A DNA stretch of 35,653 bases, from the NCBI GenBank assembly GCA_945861935.1, contig CAMAVU010000011.1, positions 1 to 35,653 on the forward strand, read 5' to 3'. How positions within the stretch are numbered: position 1 is the stretch's first letter; each line of letters begins with the position of its first letter. A program made the translations under genes and the position numbers. Below are positions 1 through 35,653 of this stretch, piece by piece. The notes beneath the pieces are model-generated. The model did not search any database and was not told the origin of the DNA. It saw only the letters and a list, made by a program, of their open reading frames with translations. Source of the stretch: Bifidobacterium breve. Lineage in GTDB: Bacteria > Actinomycetota > Thermoleophilia > Miltoncostaeales > Miltoncostaeaceae.

Positions 1-24
1 GACAGTCCCCGGGGAGGGACTGTC
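1..24. repeat. Inverted repeat of the GGGGACTGTCCCC family
   Basis: A 9-bp stem (GACAGTCCC / GGGACTGTC) encloses a 6-base loop and is followed by CCCGCGG. It lies 17 bases beyond the stop of the leftward ImmA-type gene, so it could fold as that operon's terminator. The same core recurs at 4169–4384, 8582–8604, 26787–26801 and 35379–35653. The left edge of the window cuts any further copies. Confidence 0.7.
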
Positions 25-40
25 CCCGCGGTTCCGGGTC

Positions 41-586
41 CTATGCCCCCTGCGGGCGGGTGCCTGTGATGCCCAGGTTGAAGTAGCGCCACTCCATCGC
101 GATGCCGCTCACGCCGAAGAGCCCGGCGGCCTCGTTGACGTCCGCTCCCCGGGCGGCGGCATCGCGCACGGCGCCTTCAGGCATCAGCAGCGAGGCGGCG
201 AAGTTGTTGGCTTCGCGCTCGAGCACGCTGTCCACTCTGGCCGAGATGTCCGACTCCCGGCAGAGGATGGGCTCGGGCGTCGTGCTGCGCCCCTCGTCGC
301 ACTGGCACACCCAGTGTCCGATCTCGTGGGCGAGGGTGAAGCGTCGTCGCCCCTCGCTCACTCGCGCCTCCTGTGCGTTCAGGTACACGTAGCGGGTAGC
401 GGGCACGAGCAGGCCGGACACCTCGATCTCGTCGGACTCGATCACGAACAGGCCGAGCAGGTCGCTCGCAACGCGGTCCACGGGCACGGGGCCGTCTGCT
501 GGCCGGGCGTTCCGGAACGTCGCATCGAAGCGCGCGAGCAGGGCCTCGGCGCGCGGATCCGATTCCCGGCGTCCGGCTGGGCTCAC
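41..586 (-). CDS. ImmA/IrrE family metallo-endopeptidase
   Basis: This is a predicted zinc peptidase of the ImmA/IrrE family (181 aa). The zinc motif HEIGH lies at residues 87–91, in the context FTLAHEIGHWVCQC. The likely third ligand is Glu125 in the second helix (EREANNFAASLLMP), which is the family's typical arrangement. Known relatives, ImmA of ICEBs1 and IrrE of Deinococcus, cleave or inactivate an HTH repressor encoded next to them. Here the gene is last in a three-gene leftward operon after a sigma factor and an HTH protein. Its GTG start overlaps the HTH gene's TGA (GTGA), so the two are probably translationally coupled. By inference, the substrate is the HTH protein or another regulator of the operon. 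The fold and active site are well supported; the target is a guess. Confidence 0.9.
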   Translation of the reverse strand: MSPAGRRESDPRAEALLARFDATFRNARPADGPVPVDRVASDLLGLFVIESDEIEVSGLLVPATRYVYLNAQEARVSEGRRRFTLAHEIGHWVCQCDEGRSTTPEPILCRESDISARVDSVLEREANNFAASLLMPEGAVRDAAARGADVNEAAGLFGVSGIAMEWRYFNLGITGTRPQGA

Positions 587-1155
587 CCCGGCCCGCCGGT
601 GAACAGGTCGTCAACATTGTCGGGTTCGAGCGCTGGCGAGGCCATGCTGTGCCAGACCGCCTGCGTCCCGTCAACGGAGCGTGCGAACACCGCCTGGCTC
701 CCACCCGGCGACGATGGCCCGGGCCCCTGCACGAGGAGCGATGCCCGGGCGACGCCCAGCACCTTGGCGACGGCGTCGAAGACCCGGTCCCGGATCCCGG
801 CGAGCGGCAGCTGCCCGGTCTCGAGTTCGTGGTAGTACACGGCCACCCGCTGGTCGTCGGCCGACCCGAGCCCCAACTCGTCGCGCAGCCCCGTCACCAC
901 CTCGTCGCGCGTCATGCCCTTGGCCGCACGCAACTCCAACAGGGGCGGGTGGCCGCGCAGCATTGCCTGCACCATCAGGACCGTCTCGATGGCGGGATCG
1001 GGCGGGGTCTCCTCCACCAGCACCGTGCGGATGCGCCGCCCCATTTCCTCCCGCCCGGCCTCGGGAACGCGGGCCAGGAACGCCGATGCATCGGGGTGCT
1101 CGCCCGCCGTGTAGGCCCGGCGGAACTCCGCGGTCAGTTCCTCGATTTCGCTCAT
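583..1155 (-). CDS. HTH (XRE-like) regulator of the sigma/ImmA operon
   Basis: This predicted cytoplasmic regulator is 190 aa long. The N-terminal ~80 residues are helical and acidic (EIEELTAEFRRAYTAGEHPD and onward). The middle part (about residues 80–145) resembles an XRE/Cro-type helix-turn-helix: LRAAKGMTRDEVVTGL, then YYHELETGQLPL, then a third helix up to RASLL. The last ~40 residues are Gly/Pro-rich and probably disordered. The ATG at 1155 overlaps the stop of the sigma gene (ATGA), and its own stop overlaps the start of the ImmA gene. The gene sits where an anti-sigma factor or an ImmR/DdrO-like repressor would be expected. I do not recognise a named family, so the HTH assignment is moderate and the partner role is inferred from context. 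Confidence 0.7.
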   Translation of the reverse strand: MSEIEELTAEFRRAYTAGEHPDASAFLARVPEAGREEMGRRIRTVLVEETPPDPAIETVLMVQAMLRGHPPLLELRAAKGMTRDEVVTGLRDELGLGSADDQRVAVYYHELETGQLPLAGIRDRVFDAVAKVLGVARASLLVQGPGPSSPGGSQAVFARSVDGTQAVWHSMASPALEPDNVDDLFTGGPG

Positions 1156-1703
1156 GTGCCGTCCTCCACGAGCCACTGCCCGATGCGGTCCTTGGCGCGA
1201 TGGTGGATCTGGTGTGCGTTGTTGGGGGTGATCCCCATGGCCCTCGCCACCTCCGCGAGGCTGCGTCCGTCAAGATAGTGCATGGTCATCAGTGTGCGCT
1301 CACGATCATTCAGCCGGGCGAACAACGCCTCGACAACCTCATCCTGCCCCACTCGATCCAGGTCGTGGGCGGCGGAGTGATCGACCGGCTCGTCCCCCGG
1401 CATGTCGCCGAGCGAGCGCTCCCGCTCCCGGTTCCCGGCGGCGTCGGCCACATAGCCCTTGATCGTCCAGATCGTGATCTGGAAGACCACCGCCCGGATG
1501 GGCAGCGAATAGCGCCTGCCTGACTGGATCTCGCGGGTGAGCCGCAGGAAGACCTCCTGCCGCACCTCTTCGACCTCACCGCCACGCACCTTGCCGGTGG
1601 AACGGATCCAGTGCAGAACGGGCTCCCAGTACAACGCCGCCACGCTGTTGATGTCGTAGTCATCACTTGACAGGCACTCGGGATGTGTCGCTTCCTTACG
1701 CAC
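1152..1703 (-). CDS. RNA polymerase sigma-70 family (ECF-like) factor
   Basis: This is a short alternative sigma factor of about 183 aa. An N-terminal region-2-like segment contains EEVRQEVFLRLTREI and a helix FQITIWTIKGYVAD. The C-terminal region 4 is clear: LNDRERTLMTMHYLDG, then the HTH SLAEVARAMGITPNNAHQIH. The linker between them is acidic. The reading frame stays open far upstream across the groES promoter, so the start must be chosen. I favour GTG at 1703 because a TATTCT hexamer lies 9 bases before it on the minus strand; GTG 1712 is the alternative, and neither has a clear ribosome binding site. It is the first gene of the sigma–HTH–ImmA operon and points away from groES. The family call is firm; its regulon is unknown. 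Confidence 0.85.
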   Translation of the reverse strand: MRKEATHPECLSSDDYDINSVAALYWEPVLHWIRSTGKVRGGEVEEVRQEVFLRLTREIQSGRRYSLPIRAVVFQITIWTIKGYVADAAGNRERERSLGDMPGDEPVDHSAAHDLDRVGQDEVVEALFARLNDRERTLMTMHYLDGRSLAEVARAMGITPNNAHQIHHRAKDRIGQWLVEDGT

Positions 1704-1952
1704 GCTGTTCACAGAATACGCTTGCAACACCCGCCATTCGGCGCACGCGTCGGCCGACTGCCGGAAATCAAGGTGCTCCGTGCACCGGGAGCGGTCATGC
1801 ACGTGGGGGTACGTGTGTCTGTCCCCGGCCTGAGCCCGGCTCACAGGCTCTCCGGATACCGCCGGGACACGCCGCGGGGGTCGCTCCCGCCATTCCGGGA
1901 CCGGCTGAAGCCCCGCAATACGCCCAAACCCGGGGCGTCGGGACGTTCGCAC
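1704..1952. other. Divergent intergenic region between sigma operon and groES
   Basis: About 250 bases separate the leftward sigma gene from the groES promoter. I see no convincing gene here; the open frames are short or are extensions of neighbours in GC-rich sequence. A TATTCT hexamer on the minus strand (1718–1713) is the best -10 candidate for the sigma operon, but I find no good -35 at the matching distance. Confidence 0.4.
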
Positions 1953-1985: not shown

Positions 1986-2012
1986 TTGGCACTCAGGCGG
2001 GGCGAGTGCCAT
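1986..2012 (+). promoter_or_regulatory. CIRCE operator (HrcA binding site)
   Basis: TTGGCACTC–N9–GAGTGCCAT matches the CIRCE layout (TTAGCACTC–N9–GAGTGCTAA) with 8 of 9 paired positions. It lies 42 bases before the groES start and overlaps the predicted transcription start. CIRCE is bound by the repressor HrcA, so groESL here should be heat- and misfolding-induced. No hrcA gene is in the window. Confidence 0.9.
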
Positions 2013-4133: not shown

Positions 4134-4384
4134 GGAGCAAGGGGACTGGAGCAAGGGGACTGGAGCAAGGGGACTGTCCCCCTGAGGGGACTGTCCCCGC
4201 GGTTGGGGGTTGGGCCCCGCGGTTGGGGGATGGGGGTTGGGGGTTTGCTGTTGGGGGACTGTCCCCCTGAGGGGACTGTCCCCGCGGTTGGTGGTCCCCG
4301 CGGTTGGTGGGGTCACCTGAGGGGACTGTCCCCGCGGTTGGTGGTCCCCGCGGTTGGTGGTCCCCGCGGTTGGTGGGGTCACCC
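4134..4384. repeat. Repeat patch: 14-bp tandem units, GGGGACTGTCCCC palindromes and G-runs
   Basis: This gene-free stretch is built almost wholly of repeats. Three tandem copies of GGAGCAAGGGGACT occupy 4134–4175. GGGGACTGTCCCC palindromes follow, for example at 4169–4181 and 4186–4198, with more copies to about 4335. TCCCCGCGGTTGGTGG-type units then recur several times up to 4384. A G-rich block at 4205–4257 lies inside. The open frames running through it are low-complexity and not credible genes. The patch separates the groESL terminator from the tail-collar cassette. Confidence 0.85.
4225..4257 (+). other. Potential G-quadruplex
   Basis: Four runs of five G lie at 4225–4229, 4232–4236, 4239–4243 and 4253–4257, with loops of 2, 2 and 9 bases. 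This satisfies the usual G-quadruplex pattern on the plus strand. It lies within the repeat patch. Confidence 0.6.
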
Positions 4385-4493: not shown

Positions 4494-4971
4494 ATGGCCG
4501 ATGCAGAGTCTCCGCACGTGGGATCCATCTCGATGCTCGCCTTCCCATGGCCCATGAACTGGTGGGCGCTTGCGACGGGCCAGACCCTGCCGATCGTGCA
4601 GAACCAGACGCTTTCCGCGCTGTACGGCACCTTCTTCGGCGGCGATGGCCGGACGACCTTCGGCCTGCCCGATCTGCAGGGGCGCGGGGTGGTGGGGCAG
4701 GGGCAGGGAAACGGCCGTCCCTTCGCCGCGCTGGGCAGAGCACATGGGTGCGGAGACCTCAGTCCTGACGCCGTGGTTGATGCCACAGCACGTGCACACG
4801 GTGACTTCGGGCGGGACGGCAGGGGTGCTCGGCTCCGCGGCCGCTCGTGGAACGGCGGGTCAGGAACCGACGGGGGTTACCGGTGGCGGCACCGCCGTCG
4901 GGACGCTGCCGCCGAGTCCCGTGGTGAGTCAGCAGGTATGCCTGAGCGGGCTCTTCGCTGAACACGCGTAG
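4494..4971 (+). pseudogene. Tail-collar domain protein, frameshifted
   Basis: The first ~80 codons from ATG 4494 encode a phage-tail-collar (microcystin-dependent protein-like) N-terminus: GSISMLAFPWPMNWWALATG, then FFGGDGRTTFGLPDLQGRG. This is closely similar to the intact protein at 5514–5999. Near 4735–4745 the homology moves to the +1 frame, where GAETSVLTPWLMPQHVH matches the paralogue's QESVTLTVANLPPHEH. That frame then runs to the TAG at 4969–4971. One extra base, or two missing, would explain this. It may be a true pseudogene beside a repeat patch, an assembly error, or much less likely a recoding site. The paralogue comparison makes the frame break clear. Confidence 0.8.
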
Positions 4972-5008
4972 CGACGGCATGGATCTGAGAAAACGATCGG
5001 AGGACGCG

Positions 5009-5521
5009 ATGGAACACGACGATTCGGGCACAGGTACGACCTCGCGCCGGGCGTTCCTGACCGGGGCGGCAGGGGTCGCGGGCGCGGCCATCGGTGCAAG
5101 CGTGCTGGGAGCGGCGGGTGTGGCCCAGGCGTCGACCCCGAAGAGGGTGTCGGGGTCGACGCATCCCCCGCCTCACCCGCACCGGGCGCCGCACGCCCAC
5201 TACCGCCGGGGTCTGTTCGAGGACGCCAAGAGCGCCCGGGTGACCCTGCTGCTGGATGGCTCACCCGTGACGCTGACCATCCGCGACATCAATCCCCTCG
5301 GCGTCGCCGAGGCGGCGCCGGGCGGGTCGCACCTCTGGCACAACGCCTTCTCCGTGACCATGACCGGACCCGTCGGAACGGACATCCCGCAGGGAACCTA
5401 CCCTGTGACCATCAACGGGAAGCGCTTCGACCTGTTCGTGGTGCCGCTCCTCCGCACTACGGCCACGCCGGTGTACGAAGCCATCATCAACCGTGCCTAC
5501 TACAGGAGGGCCCGTGGCTAG
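5009..5521 (+). CDS. Tat-exported DUF6916-like protein
   Basis: This 170-aa protein begins with a twin-arginine signal (TSRRAFLTGAAG) and an Ala/Gly-rich hydrophobic stretch ending near AQA, so it is probably folded before export. A His/Pro-rich linker follows. The C-terminal ~100 residues resemble the beta-rich DUF6916 domain: ARVTLLLDGSPVTLTI, FSVTMTGP, IPQGTYPVTI, FDLFVVPL. To my knowledge such domains are often encoded beside tail-collar proteins, and here one lies on each side. ATG 5009 is chosen over 4979 because AGGA-type ribosome binding sequence ends just before it. The stop overlaps the downstream collar gene by 8 bases, implying coupling. The function of the family is not known. 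Confidence 0.75.
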   Translation: MEHDDSGTGTTSRRAFLTGAAGVAGAAIGASVLGAAGVAQASTPKRVSGSTHPPPHPHRAPHAHYRRGLFEDAKSARVTLLLDGSPVTLTIRDINPLGVAEAAPGGSHLWHNAFSVTMTGPVGTDIPQGTYPVTINGKRFDLFVVPLLRTTATPVYEAIINRAYYRRARG

Positions 5522-5999
5522 TTACGAACCCTATCTGGGGTCCATCGATGCTCTGGGATTCCCGTGGCCCATCAATGGGTGGGCGATCGCCGATGGCTCG
5601 TTTCTCCCCACCTCCCAACAAGCCGCGCTCTACTCGCTGTTGGGAACCGCTTTCGGCGGGAACGGTACGACGACATTTGCCCTGCCCGATCTCCGTGGCC
5701 GTGGCACCGTGGGGCAGGGCGCGGGGGCTGGGCTGACCCCCCGGGTCATAGGACAGGTCTTTGGGCAGGAGAGCGTCACGCTCACTGTGGCCAACCTGCC
5801 ACCGCATGAGCACGCGGTGACGTTGGGCGGCACCGCGGCCTCAAGCGGATCCACCGCGGCCGCAGGCAGCGGTTCCAACACGCCGCCGGCAATCGCGACA
5901 TCCGCTGCGGGCGGGGCACAGCCCTTCCCGACCCTGCCACCCAGTTTGGTTCTGGCGTTCCAGGTCGCGCTTGTGGGGTATTACCCGTCCCGCAATTAG
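5514..5999 (+). CDS. Phage tail collar domain protein (MdpB-like)
   Basis: This 161-aa protein carries the tail-collar domain: YLGSIDALGFPWPINGWAIA, FGGNGTTTFALPDLRGRGTV and LPPHEHAV, with a Ser/Ala/Gly-rich region before the C-terminus. Proteins of this type occur in tail fibres, and also outside phages as microcystin-dependent protein-like genes of uncertain function. The GTG at 5514 follows AGGAGGG at 5504–5510 and overlaps the stop of the Tat-protein gene. The frameshifted paralogue lies 540 bases upstream. No capsid, terminase, portal or integrase gene is nearby, so this is a free-standing cassette and not a prophage. Confidence 0.85.
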   Translation: MASYEPYLGSIDALGFPWPINGWAIADGSFLPTSQQAALYSLLGTAFGGNGTTTFALPDLRGRGTVGQGAGAGLTPRVIGQVFGQESVTLTVANLPPHEHAVTLGGTAASSGSTAAAGSGSNTPPAIATSAAGGAQPFPTLPPSLVLAFQVALVGYYPSRN

Positions 6000-7422: not shown

Positions 7423-8573
7423 CCATCAGTACGCCGGCCGACGGTCTCGGGTTGACCGAGACCCAGCGGGTCGTCCTGTTCACTCGGGACGACCCGCTGG
7501 GTCTCGAGTCGGGCGCGCGGCTGGGTCCGGTTGAGGTGGCATACGAGACGTATGGCACGCTGAACGCGGACGGCACCAACGCGGTGTACGTGTGCCACGC
7601 CCTCACAGGCGATGCCCATGCCGCCGGCCACCACGGCGACCCGGGGCGCCGGGGGTGGTGGGACAACCTGATCGGTCCCGGCCGTCCGGTGGACACGGAC
7701 CGCTTCTTCGTCGTCTGCTCGAACCTCCTGGGCGGATGCCAGGGAACCACCGGTCCGGGGTCGGAGAACCCGGACACCGGGCGCCCGTACGGGCTGGCGT
7801 TCCCGCTCTTCACCGTGCGCGATCTGGTGGAGGTGCATCGTGCGCTGCTCCGGCATCTGGGCATCGCCCGGCTGGCGGGTGCCATCGGCGGATCGCTCGG
7901 CGGCATGCAGGTCCTTCAGTGGGTCATCGACCACCCGGGCGAGGTTGATGCCGCGCTGGTCGTCTGCGCGTCGCCGCGGCTCTCGGCGCAGAACATCGCC
8001 TTCAGTGCGGTTGCCCGCGAGGCGATCATGCGCGACCCGGACTTCCAGGGCGGGGACTACTACGGCACGGGACGCGCGCCCGACACCGGTCTGTCGATCG
8101 CACGGATGATGGCGCACATCACGTATGTGTCGGAGGCGTCCATGCGCGAGAAGTTCGGGCGCCGCCTCCAGCACGGTGACGCCCCTCACTTCGACTTCAG
8201 CGTGGACTTCCAGGTGGAGTCGTACCTGCAGCATCAGGGCGAGTCGTTCCTCAAGCGGTTCGACGCCAACACCTACCTGTACATGACCCGGGTCATGGAC
8301 TACTTCGATGCCTTCTCCGACCCGGTCACGGTGGGTGCCCGCCTCGAGGGCACTGCCACGCGCTTTCTCGTGGTGTCGTTCGATTCCGACTGGCGCTTCG
8401 ACACCGAGCACTCGCGCGAGATCGTCCGTCACCTGCAGGCGTGGCGGGTGCCCGTGACCTTCCGCGAGGTGGAGAGTCCGTGGGGTCACGACTCGTTCCT
8501 GCTCGAGATCCCCGAGTACCACCGCACGATCCAGGCCTTCCTCGACCGCACCGCGGGCGATCTGGGCATCTGA
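7419..8573 (+). CDS. metX: Homoserine O-acetyltransferase
   Basis: This alpha/beta-hydrolase-fold enzyme transfers an acetyl (or succinyl) group to homoserine. The likely triad is Ser159 in GGSLGGMQ, Asp324 in DSDWRF and His357 in WGHDSFL. YETYGTLNADG and NLLGGCQGTTGP are typical of the family. No ATG, GTG or TTG lies at the expected N-terminus except TTG 7452. I prefer CTG 7419, which overlaps the metY stop as CTGA and has a GGTGGGGG purine run about six bases upstream. The same arrangement recurs at mfd. The length is then 384 aa, normal for MetX. metW follows after a palindromic repeat. Function is firm; the start is moderate. Confidence 0.93.
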   Translation: MTISTPADGLGLTETQRVVLFTRDDPLGLESGARLGPVEVAYETYGTLNADGTNAVYVCHALTGDAHAAGHHGDPGRRGWWDNLIGPGRPVDTDRFFVVCSNLLGGCQGTTGPGSENPDTGRPYGLAFPLFTVRDLVEVHRALLRHLGIARLAGAIGGSLGGMQVLQWVIDHPGEVDAALVVCASPRLSAQNIAFSAVAREAIMRDPDFQGGDYYGTGRAPDTGLSIARMMAHITYVSEASMREKFGRRLQHGDAPHFDFSVDFQVESYLQHQGESFLKRFDANTYLYMTRVMDYFDAFSDPVTVGARLEGTATRFLVVSFDSDWRFDTEHSREIVRHLQAWRVPVTFREVESPWGHDSFLLEIPEYHRTIQAFLDRTAGDLGI

Positions 8574-8581
8574 GCCGCTGC

Positions 8582-8604
8582 ACCGCGGGGACTGTCCCCG
8601 CGGT
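8582..8604. repeat. Perfect GGGGACTGTCCCC-family palindrome between metX and metW
   Basis: ACCGCGGGGAC and GTCCCCGCGGT flank a single T, giving an 11-bp perfect inverted repeat. It lies 8 bases after the metX stop and could act as a terminator or attenuator between metX and metW. The core is the same as in the patch at 4134–4384. Confidence 0.8.
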
Positions 8605-8612
8605 CGGCGCGG

Positions 8613-8618
8613 TAGCCT
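8613..8618 (+). promoter_or_regulatory. -10 hexamer of a leaderless metW promoter
   Basis: TAGCCT ends exactly seven bases before the metW ATG, so transcription would begin at the start codon. No ribosome binding site is visible. No -35 match is seen, which is common for such promoters. Confidence 0.5.
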
Positions 8619-8625
8619 CAGCCGG

Positions 8626-9234
8626 ATGGCACTCCGACCCGATCTCGATGTCGCCGCCGCCATGGTGCCGCACGGGTCGCGCGTGCTCGACCTCGGCTGT
8701 GGCGACGGCGTCCTCCTCGAACACCTCATCCGTGATCAGGAGTGCACCGGCACCGGTGTGGAGATCTCGGACGAGGGCTTTCACGCGTGCGTGGCGCGGG
8801 GCGTTCCCGTGCTGGTCGCCGACATCGATCAGGGGCTGGGCGACGTGGACGACGACGCCTTCGACGTGGTGATCCTGTCGCAGACCCTGCAGGCCACGCA
8901 CCGGCCGCCCCTCGTGCTGCACGAGATGATGCGGGTGGGGCACGTGGGCATCGTGTCGTTCCCCAACTTCGGTCATTGGCGTCTGCGGTGGTCGCTCGCG
9001 GCACGGGGTCGCATGCCCGCGAGCGCATCCCTGCCGTACCACTGGTACGACACCCCGAACATCCACCTGTGCACCATCCGCGACTTCGAGGCCCTCATGG
9101 CCCATGAGAACCTGATGATCATGCAGCGGGTGCTCCTCGATGCGCGCGGGCACCGTCTGACCGGCGCGCGCCGCCGTCGCCCGAACCTGCTCGCCGCGGG
9201 TGCCGTGTATCTGGTGGGGCGCTCCCGCCCGTGA
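8626..9234 (+). CDS. metW: Methionine biosynthesis protein MetW
   Basis: MetW is a class-I SAM-methyltransferase-fold protein, classically encoded beside metX and linked to homoserine acylation. The SAM motif VLDLGCGDGVLLEHL lies at about residues 20–34. Family hallmarks are present: SQTLQATHRPPLVLHEMMRV, FPNFGHWRLRW and PYHWYDTPNIHLCT. At 202 aa it has the normal length. It appears to have its own leaderless promoter (TAGCCT at 8613) besides read-through from metX. The AEC gene overlaps its stop (GTGA). Confidence 0.95.
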   Translation: MALRPDLDVAAAMVPHGSRVLDLGCGDGVLLEHLIRDQECTGTGVEISDEGFHACVARGVPVLVADIDQGLGDVDDDAFDVVILSQTLQATHRPPLVLHEMMRVGHVGIVSFPNFGHWRLRWSLAARGRMPASASLPYHWYDTPNIHLCTIRDFEALMAHENLMIMQRVLLDARGHRLTGARRRRPNLLAAGAVYLVGRSRP

Positions 9235-10148
9235 TCGAAACCGCATTCGCGGCGCTCATCATGATCGCGATCGGGGTGCTGTTGCGGCAGCTCGGGGTGA
9301 TCCAGCGCGATCAGGCGCCCATCCTCGTGCAGGTCACGCTCTACGTTCTGCTGCCGGCTCTGGTGCTGGACATCATGGTGGGCACCGACCTCGAATGGGG
9401 TCTCATCGTCGTGCCCTTCGCGGCGTTCGCGGTGACCGCGCTGATGGCACCCCTCGCGCTCGCCCTTGCCCGGATGATGAGGCTGGGACGCGGCGCGACC
9501 GGTGGGGTGCTGGTGATGGTGGGGGTGGCCAACACCGGATTCTTCGGCCTTCCGCTCATCGCGGCGTCGGGCGGGGACTACTCACTGGCTGTGGCCGTGA
9601 TGTACGACGCCCTCGGCACCGGCATCCTCATCTGGACATTCAACCCCTTCGTGGGTGCGTGGTTCGGCCGGGGCGAGGTGGAGGACGCGGGGACGATCTG
9701 GCACTCCCTCCGCGGACTCCTGCTGCCACCCATGTGGGCGCTGGTCATCGGCCTGATCCTCAACCTGTCCGGCGTCCACGAGCTCTGGGGACCGATCCAG
9801 ATGCCCGTGGGATTCCTCGCCGCGGGGCTCCTCCCGATCGTGATGCTCTACGCCGGGATCGTGCTCGAGTGGTCGGGTATCGTCGGCAACTGGCGCATCA
9901 TCGCCGGGGTGTCGGTGCTGAAACTGGCCGTTGCGCCCGTGGCGGCGTTCGCCATCGCATGGGCGTTCGGCTTCCGCGGGGACGCACTCGACACCATCAC
10001 GGTCCTCGGGGCCATGCCCAGCGGCATGATGGCCCTCGTCATGGGCGCGCACTACCGTCTGCCCGTCAGCCTGCTGGCCGGGTGCGTGGCCGTCACCACC
10101 GTCCTCTCGCTGTTCACCATTCCCATCGTCTCGGCGGTCATCCTGTGA
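9231..10148 (+). CDS. AEC family transporter (auxin efflux carrier type)
   Basis: This 305-aa integral membrane protein has about ten hydrophobic helices. It shows the two-half layout of the AEC/PIN-like family, with conserved stretches such as TLYVLLPALVLDIM, VGVANTGFFGLPLI and the C-terminal LGAMPSGMMALVMG. Members export small organic anions, including malate and auxin-like compounds; the substrate here is unknown. Its GTG start overlaps the metW stop and its stop overlaps the pyrF start (both GTGA), so metW–AEC–pyrF should be one transcript. Position after metW suggests, weakly, an amino-acid-related substrate. Confidence 0.9.
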   Translation: MIETAFAALIMIAIGVLLRQLGVIQRDQAPILVQVTLYVLLPALVLDIMVGTDLEWGLIVVPFAAFAVTALMAPLALALARMMRLGRGATGGVLVMVGVANTGFFGLPLIAASGGDYSLAVAVMYDALGTGILIWTFNPFVGAWFGRGEVEDAGTIWHSLRGLLLPPMWALVIGLILNLSGVHELWGPIQMPVGFLAAGLLPIVMLYAGIVLEWSGIVGNWRIIAGVSVLKLAVAPVAAFAIAWAFGFRGDALDTITVLGAMPSGMMALVMGAHYRLPVSLLAGCVAVTTVLSLFTIPIVSAVIL

Positions 10149-26149: not shown

Positions 26150-26824
26150 GTGGCGGACGCGGCAGCCGAGCCGCCGGTCCGCCTGGTGGTGGGGCTTGGG
26201 AACCCGGGTGCCCGGTACGCACGCACGCGCCACAATTCCGGCCAGCGGGTGGTGCAGGCTCTGGCTCTGCGCCTGAGTGCCCCCCGGTTCGCGGGGCGCT
26301 ACGCCGGTGAGTTCTCCGAGGCGCGCGGTCCCCGCGGTTCCGTGGCGCTCCTGGTGCCGACGACGTTCATGAATGATTCCGGGTCGTCGGTCGGCCCCGC
26401 GGTCGGCGGGTTGCGGATCACCCCCGAGCAGGTGCTCGTGGTGCATGACGACATCGATGTGCCCTTCGGCGAGATCCGGGGCAAGAGGGGTGGGGGGCAT
26501 GGCGGGCACAACGGTCTGCGCTCGATCGTGCAGGGTCTTGGCAGCCACGACTTCCTGCGGGTGCGCGTGGGCGTGGGGCGTCCCGGGCCGGGCTTCCGCG
26601 GAGATGAGGCCGATTGGGTGCTGGGGCCCTTCGACGAGCCCGTGGTCCAGGTGGATGATCTTCTCGCCCGCAGTCTGGCGATGACTGAGGCCGTGCTGGA
26701 TCACGGTATGGATGAGGCAGTCGCGCGCTTCCACGCCCGCCCGCCGGGTGAACGCGCCCGCGCACGGGCAACCCGGCCCGACACCCCGGGGACAGTCCCC
26801 GAGGTGGGTGGGGGAGACTCCTGA
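26150..26824 (+). CDS. pth: Peptidyl-tRNA hydrolase
   Basis: Pth frees tRNA from peptidyl-tRNA released by stalled ribosomes. The catalytic His28 lies in RTRHNSGQ. LVVGLGNPGARY, PTTFMNDSG, VVHDDIDVPFGEIR and GGGHGGHNGLRSI are all present. The start is GTG 26150. The protein is 224 aa, about 30 longer than usual. The last ~14 residues are encoded by a GGGGACAGTCCCC-family palindrome and the G-rich stretch after it. The end of the gene also carries the GGGGGAG run that appears to serve as ribosome binding site for mfd. Confidence 0.95.
   Translation: MADAAAEPPVRLVVGLGNPGARYARTRHNSGQRVVQALALRLSAPRFAGRYAGEFSEARGPRGSVALLVPTTFMNDSGSSVGPAVGGLRITPEQVLVVHDDIDVPFGEIRGKRGGGHGGHNGLRSIVQGLGSHDFLRVRVGVGRPGPGFRGDEADWVLGPFDEPVVQVDDLLARSLAMTEAVLDHGMDEAVARFHARPPGERARARATRPDTPGTVPEVGGGDS
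26787..26801. repeat. GGGGACAGTCCCC-family palindrome inside the 3' end of pth
   Basis: CGGGGAC and GTCCCCG flank a single A. It is the only copy seen here that is translated, encoding part of the extra C-terminal tail of Pth. Confidence 0.75.
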
Positions 26825-35378: not shown

Positions 35379-35653
35379 GGTGACAGTCCCCCTTACCGCG
35401 GGGACAGCCCCCGCCCGGTGACAGTCCCCCTTACCGCGGGGACAGCCCCCGCCCGGTGAACCGGGACAGCCCCCGCCCGGTGACAGTCCCCCTTACCGCG
35501 GGGACAGCCCCCGCCCGGTGACAGTCCCCATTACCGCGGGGACAGCCCCCGCCCGGTGAACCGGGACAGCCCCCGCCCGGTGACAGTCCCCCTTACCGCG
35601 GGGACAGCCCCCGCCCGGTGACAGTCCCCCTTACCGCGGGGACAGCCCCCGCC
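35379..35653. repeat. Tandem array with a 100-bp higher-order unit
   Basis: Two related units alternate without spacers: A (38 bp, beginning GGTGACAGTCCCCCTTACCG) and B (24 bp, beginning GGTGAACCGGGACAGC). Both end in the same GACAGCCCCCGCCC. The order is A A B A A B A A, with A starting at 35379, 35417, 35479, 35517, 35579 and 35617 and B at 35455 and 35555. The A-A-B block repeats every 100 bases exactly. One base differs (C to A in the fourth A). The array runs off the window. It belongs to the GGGGACTGTCCCC-like family. Confidence 0.9.

Follow-up and report, generated by a model that had tools for sequence, protein, structure and literature searches.

What does a sigma factor do in one operon with a helix-turn-helix (HTH) protein and an ImmA/IrrE-type peptidase? 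The question is raised by the left end of the stretch of DNA analyzed here (the window), which is the whole of contig C11 (35,653 bases) from a genome of 1.6 Mb; related records carry the labels Thermoleophilia or Actinomycetota. Little genetic work has been done on Thermoleophilia, a class of bacteria common in soil and water. Three genes in the order sigma, HTH, ImmA, hereafter the trio, are transcribed away from a divergent groES-groEL operon, with an overlap of exactly 4 bases at both junctions (Table 1). A preliminary description had read them as a leftward unit in which stress might activate the peptidase, which would then remove the HTH protein and release the sigma factor. Our analysis suggests that the trio is probably a previously undescribed damage-response switch, with the repair of double-strand breaks as its likely output.

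Table 1. Features of the trio and its upstream region, in window coordinates
Feature	Position	Strand	Evidence
ImmA/IrrE-type (M78) zinc metallopeptidase, 181 aa, GTG start	41..586	-	Pfam PF06114 9.7e-15
EREANNFAASLLMP motif, ~residues 122-136 of the peptidase, with presumed third zinc-ligand glutamate	179..223	-	E123, A126, F129, L133, P136 invariant
HEIGH zinc-binding/catalytic motif, residues 87-91 of the peptidase	314..328	-	H87, E88, G90, H91 invariant in 40 aligned relatives
HTH protein, 190 aa, ATG start (alternative GTG at 1176)	583..1155	-	48-member alignment A1; model; sigma upstream in 72/74 loci
Disordered linker (residues 145-178, pLDDT <50) and short C-terminal helix with VDDLF motif (181-186) of the HTH protein	598..723	-	Alignment A1; model
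XRE-like helix-turn-helix domain, residues 67-144	724..957	-	Z ~7 to DdrO 6jq1/6rnz, SinR 1b0n, CapH 7t5u
N-terminal helical domain of the HTH protein, residues 1-66, proposed sigma-binding part	958..1155	-	Model helices 3-16, 23-28, 32-48; stand-alone 77-aa form in L066
ECF-like sigma-70 family factor, 183 aa, GTG start	1152..1703	-	TIGR02937 2.4e-15; Sigma70_r4_2 3.4e-11
TATTCT within GCGTATTCT, a possible -10 element 9 bases ahead of the GTG start	1713..1718	-	GCGTAnnnT-like sequence at the same place in congeners, by eye
CIRCE element of the divergent groES-groEL operon, outside the switch	1986..2012	+	One match, 1 mismatch, 0.01 expected

Results

Gene content and conservation of the trio

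The reading frames confirm the leftward unit of three genes with its 4-base overlaps, and gene order, strand and overlap recur in relatives far beyond chance. The ECF-like sigma factor announced in the preliminary description is recovered by the two-domain sigma-70 model TIGR02937 at residues 23-176, with 56.6 bits against a cut-off of 42.9. Pfam reaches its region 4 (Sigma70_r4_2) and not region 2; among 41 orthologues, region 4 is found in 32 and region 2 in 7. The sigma factor is the least conserved of the three proteins.

A close homologue of the peptidase occurs in 10 of the 19 other genomes of the genus, and the congener trios carry ImmA behind sigma and HTH in the same order and on the same strand. 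Across the class, 123 of 399 genomes have some match to the peptidase. Most of the 60 loci that we fetched contain the trio; these were picked by the peptidase, and 20 further loci were picked by the N-terminal domain of the HTH protein alone to avoid that selection. In all 20 of the latter, a sigma gene lies directly upstream on the same strand, and the peptidase gene is nearby in all 17 in which the HTH gene is not at a contig end. The preliminary description had tied its proposal to conservation of the trio in relatives, and that conservation is there. When the loci are pooled, sigma adjoins HTH in 72 of 74 and ImmA lies within 2.5 kb in 70; three of the four loci without a nearby ImmA end at a contig edge beside HTH.

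The sigma and HTH genes are always co-directional and close, and ImmA is movable: it is turned tail to tail in 21 loci, with at least 4 changes of orientation by parsimony on the HTH tree, a quick tree with many weak forks. The peptidase gene has thus been flipped in many lineages and is still nearby, which indicates that its linkage has been kept whereas its membership in the operon has not.

Beyond the class, the trio was found in 1 of 24 genomes of one other class of the same phylum, and the survey outside Actinomycetota covered relatives of the peptidase only. The HTH protein has no match in 50,697 phage records and 72,556 plasmid records. The absence of mobile-element genes around the trio, also claimed in the preliminary description, stands on one side of the window and in the congeners examined, where no mobile-element look-alikes lie beyond the ImmA end; the window contig itself ends 40 bases behind ImmA, so that this other side is judged from congeners only. 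These observations support the trio as a real, conserved and apparently non-mobile module.

Two variants of the arrangement were seen. Members of one clade (L090, L091, L092, L136) carry between sigma and HTH an extra gene of ~130 aa, whose product may resemble sigma region 2. Locus L274 (genome G356) holds at 8161-9796 a second sigma-HTH-ImmA-like locus, which has two of the promoter elements described below and adjoins a TM0106-type RecB nuclease gene.

The peptidase resembles CapP and lacks a sensor domain

The assignment of the third protein to the ImmA/IrrE peptidases proved sound: the Peptidase_M78 profile matches above the Pfam cut-off, and both HExxH and the downstream glutamate are present. 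HExGH and ErEAnxFAaxLLMP are invariant or nearly so among aligned relatives, and HExxH is kept in 71 of 71 trio peptidases. The nearest solved fold to the predicted model (pLDDT 89.7) is CapP (7t5t; Z 16.0, rmsd 3.1 over 160 residues), followed by PrpR and PprI/IrrE (Z 11.4-12.6 for the latter), and the PADLOC capP model matches the protein at 2.5e-25. The trio peptidase ends after the peptidase and a helical part, at 181 aa, and has no C-terminal GAF-like sensor domain. PprI needs such a domain for activation by single-stranded DNA (PMC10904395), so the signal must enter the trio differently.

An HTH protein with an additional N-terminal domain and a constrained tail

No Pfam family matches the HTH protein above its cut-off, with HTH_31 appearing only weakly, and the XRE-like fold was recognized in its AlphaFold model (pLDDT 80.7). 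Structural matches (Foldseek/VIA) span residues 64-151 only, with Z ~7 to DdrO, SinR and CapH (6.7 for CapH 7t5u), values that are common among small helical folds. The matches that the sequence profile returned from the PDB, designed helical bundles and the like with weak E-values, were rejected. The net charge of the HTH domain is only marginally lower than that of 30 ordinary XRE domains of related genomes (p 0.045), and we gave this comparison no weight.

Among 48 orthologues (alignment A1), invariance is limited to G114 of the HTH and L184-F185 of the tail, and D182 and R159 are nearly invariant. A [DE]xLF tail motif is present in 66 of 74 trio HTH proteins. With L184-F185 among the sole invariant columns, the tail motif must be under strong constraint. 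The protein may consist of a sigma-associated N-terminal domain, the HTH and a disordered tail that ends in D-x-L-F.

Locus L066 (genome G024) bears on the first of these parts. There, downstream of a second intact sigma gene, lies the gene of a 77-aa protein made up of the N-terminal domain only, without HTH or peptidase; this gene arrangement suggests that the domain may be the sigma-facing part. The short protein may also be a decayed duplicate or remnant, because decay of tandem copies is seen within the family in L070. L066 is the only clear stand-alone case among 299 genomes; a candidate in L130 was rejected, as it looks like an MgtE-type transporter. In a partial correlation of pairwise distances between the parts of the trio, the sigma-ImmA value is highest and the HTH parts have no clear pairing to either partner; this analysis was set aside.

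A bipartite promoter element in part of the family

A de novo search upstream of the operons returned one outstanding motif, (T)GTCAGA-N16-CGAC, from the distant half of the family; the element is clear in the f5/f7/f9 part of the family. In 11 loci, it stands before the sigma operon. The trio loci, 304 kb in all, hold 33 copies at a spacing of 16 against 0-5 at every other spacing, and permuted motifs gave a mean of 0.7 and at most 7. No copy at spacing 16 turned up in 280 kb of DNA taken at random from these genomes and related ones. Genome-wide counts were 10, 12, 20 and 12, against 0, 3, 1 and 6 for the reversed pattern.

In G211 and G356, the copies cluster round the trio, with 5 of 10 in the 14 kb around it in G211, and for many copies the next gene starts 8-40 bases downstream. 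The genes behind the element include sigma-HTH itself, recC (TIGR01450, 799.9 bits), an HD_4 hydrolase gene, ARPP-1 and small unknown proteins. In G162, two copies stand at an operon with Rad50-, Mre11- and NurA-like genes, beside a UvrD-like helicase gene. Farther behind the element, at 107-195 bases, come ssb and two yhaM-like genes; the farther-off genes also include one for a primary-type sigma factor. At least half of the copies listed for G203 are intragenic and probably arose by chance. Where ImmA is flipped, the element stands before sigma-HTH and not before ImmA. Such a distribution of the element resembles that of an ECF factor that controls its own operon and, for the most part, genes close by.

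In the clade of the window, the element was absent from 236 kb, and the window itself is at chance level. A search for a bipartite promoter in this clade returned only the conserved start region of the sigma gene and was rejected. The candidate -10 element of Table 1 would give a possible, nearly leaderless sigma transcript.

Two small protein families without a Pfam or NCBIfam match lie directly behind the element in several genomes, one represented by L137 3804-4220 and L273 8581-8937, the other by L275 7720-8232 and its relatives.

DNA-repair genes beside the trio

AddAB adjoins the congener trios L056 and L058. Elsewhere, the trio has as neighbors RecB-RecC (L064), AddAB-like (L068), AddA-like (L218), RecD2 (L101, L109), RecC (L272), TM0106-type RecB nuclease (L076, L094, L274) and Rad50/Mre11/NurA (L275) genes, so that nuclease-helicases of the RecBCD/AddAB kind are found beside it in several unrelated genera. 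The same queries gave no match in 20 random 14-kb stretches of such genomes. By hand count, ~9 of 30 genera have repair neighbors against 0 of 20 random stretches (p 0.006, for a gene class chosen after seeing the loci). We regard this link to DNA repair as suggestive, and the element copies before recC and the Rad50/Mre11 operon lend it partly independent support. In the window genome, AddB and DUF1996 genes, the usual downstream neighbors, were not detectable, which may reflect loss or a gap in the assembly.

ARPP-1 (PF20208) is found beside the trio still more often than the repair nucleases. It was seen in several families (L061, L068-L073, L075, L088, L089, L107, L205, L206, L219), and in L273 and L275 its gene lies directly behind the promoter element. 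Within the genus, a secreted DUF1996 protein is encoded behind ImmA (L055 8774-9871, L056 1939-3027, L058 2287-3303, L059 9665-10732, L061 7089-8123); the block upstream of this gene is strongly conserved and contains a TTGC-N6-GCAA palindrome.

Discussion

The reading that we favor is a proteolysis-controlled sigma switch, in which an HTH brake is cut by ImmA, the sigma factor is freed and break-repair genes are the output; taken as a whole, we hold it to be evenly poised between right and wrong. What the sequences show is a conserved module, an intact catalytic site, an ECF-type promoter in relatives and repair genes behind this promoter or beside the trio. The HTH protein, made together with the sigma factor, would keep it inactive, probably through the N-terminal helical domain. 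On a signal, which may be DNA damage, for instance single-stranded DNA, the peptidase would cut its HTH partner, with the disordered segment that links the HTH to the D-x-L-F tail as the most likely site, and set the sigma factor free. Because known M78 peptidases cut an XRE protein, this is the simplest transfer from what they do. Free sigma factor would then transcribe its own operon, yielding new brake and hence negative feedback, together with a gene set centered on double-strand-break repair. The protease would be constitutive and the brake resynthesized, and an element that serves sigma-HTH but not ImmA in the flipped loci is what such a division would lead one to expect.

A wider claim would make the trio a LexA-independent DNA-break response of a whole actinobacterial class, with the protease destroying an HTH-type anti-sigma factor and the sigma factor transcribing RecBCD/AddAB, Mre11-Rad50-NurA and other genes; we put it forward tentatively and think it rather doubtful.

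In the favored reading, the target of the brake is the sigma factor. In a rival reading it is DNA: the HTH protein would be a DNA-binding repressor on the sigma promoter, so that a cut by ImmA derepresses sigma and sigma is only an amplifier. Such a repressor would resemble the ImmA/IrrE substrates of the literature examined, DdrO, ImmR and CapH, all of them DNA-binding repressors (PMC8072749, PMC10904395), and DdrO, SinR and CapH are the closest folds to its HTH; against this, the protein has in the model an extra N-terminal domain and no C-terminal dimerization domain, and its HTH is too divergent for the Pfam cut-offs. Motif searches upstream of the sigma operon found no conserved operator, and the strongest conserved element there is a sigma-type -35/-10 pair; the charge difference from ordinary XRE domains is only marginal. 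Three things make us favor action on the sigma factor, namely the near-invariant coupling of sigma and HTH, the additional N-terminal domain and the absence of a conserved operator from the searches, and we consider a repressor unlikely.

The constant pairing of sigma and HTH beside a movable ImmA would also suit a working unit of these two, in which the HTH protein serves as co-factor or positive partner and its removal by ImmA ends the response. This is improbable: the M78 peptidases in the literature examined act as anti-repressors, and we know of no precedent for one acting with the opposite sign.

M78/XRE pairs are common on mobile elements (PMC8072749), and one such pair has been described as a toxin-antitoxin system (PMC10538038). 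That the trio is a toxin-antitoxin or prophage-type ImmR/ImmA module with a passenger sigma gene is nevertheless very improbable, given the sigma gene in all 20 HTH-picked loci, the lack of phage or plasmid records matching the HTH protein and surroundings made of chromosomal housekeeping genes. Least credible of all is a heat-shock link, in which the sigma operon would belong with the divergent groESL operon on account of their common intergenic region with its CIRCE element and the same arrangement in G008 and G009, since the G014 trio lies ~14 kb from groES, the two are on separate contigs in G013 and G018, and the arrangement is absent in every other family looked at.

The nearest parallels of the trio are IrrE (PprI)/DdrO of Deinococcus and CapH/CapP, and by analogy it may work like them. 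IrrE cuts DdrO between Leu106 and Arg107, which abolishes dimerization, and its expression is not induced (PMC8072749). Both PprI and CapP are activated by single-stranded DNA (PMC10904395, PMC13373217). The trio shares with IrrE/DdrO an M78 peptidase, an XRE-fold protein and repair genes as likely output; judging by the flipped loci, it also shares an apparently uninduced protease and a brake co-induced with the response. It differs in the added sigma factor, the adjacency of its genes, a peptidase without a GAF-like domain, and an HTH in mid-protein, with an extra N-terminal domain before it and a predicted disordered tail in place of the C-terminal dimerization domain. Moreover, the output element of its relatives is a sigma promoter and not a palindromic operator. 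CapP provides the closest solved peptidase structure and CapH a fold similar to that of the trio HTH; unlike CapH/CapP, the trio has a sigma factor, no sensor domain and no CBASS genes seen, and a PADLOC search of seven trio-neighbor proteins returned no immune operon and only a weak HerA-like match. Because the defining architectures of IrrE/DdrO and CapH/CapP are not found here, we do not file the trio under either.

ImmR/ImmA of ICEBs1 likewise sets a short M78 peptidase beside an HTH protein, but the trio is not on a mobile element and has the sigma factor as part of the unit. As in ECF sigma/anti-sigma units, the gene of the presumed regulator comes right after the sigma gene and overlaps its end, and a bipartite promoter stands before the sigma operon in the relatives; the regulator, however, has no recognized anti-sigma domain, and the protease that goes with it is an M78 enzyme of the cytoplasm. 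Three mechanisms for soluble anti-sigma factors are listed in a review of non-canonical ECF factors, in which IrrE and ImmA do not appear (PMC8999054). Our limited literature search found no published account of a sigma-HTH-ImmA trio, which is no proof of novelty.

If true, the switch would join sigma release by proteolysis and IrrE-type repressor cleavage in one compact module and, in its most far-reaching form, replace repressor cleavage by cytoplasmic proteolysis of an anti-sigma factor. Should the link to repair hold, it would add another LexA-free route of DNA-damage sensing beside IrrE/DdrO, PafBC, DriD and CapP. Thanks to the sharp promoter element, the regulon can be read straight from the sequences of the relatives and put to the test.

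Other features of the window

A palindromic repeat, GGGACTGTCCC, is dispersed in the window (1-26, 4170-4332, 8588-8598, 26789-26799, 35380-35649), with 30 one-mismatch matches against 1.6 expected. It forms an array at the right end of the contig, occurs at the left end too, and is probably the cause of the assembly breaks. At 4494-5999, two frames resemble phage-tail-collar or microcystin-dependent proteins (LAFPWPMNWWALATGQ and similar), with a twin-arginine-like secreted protein between them; all were named by eye.
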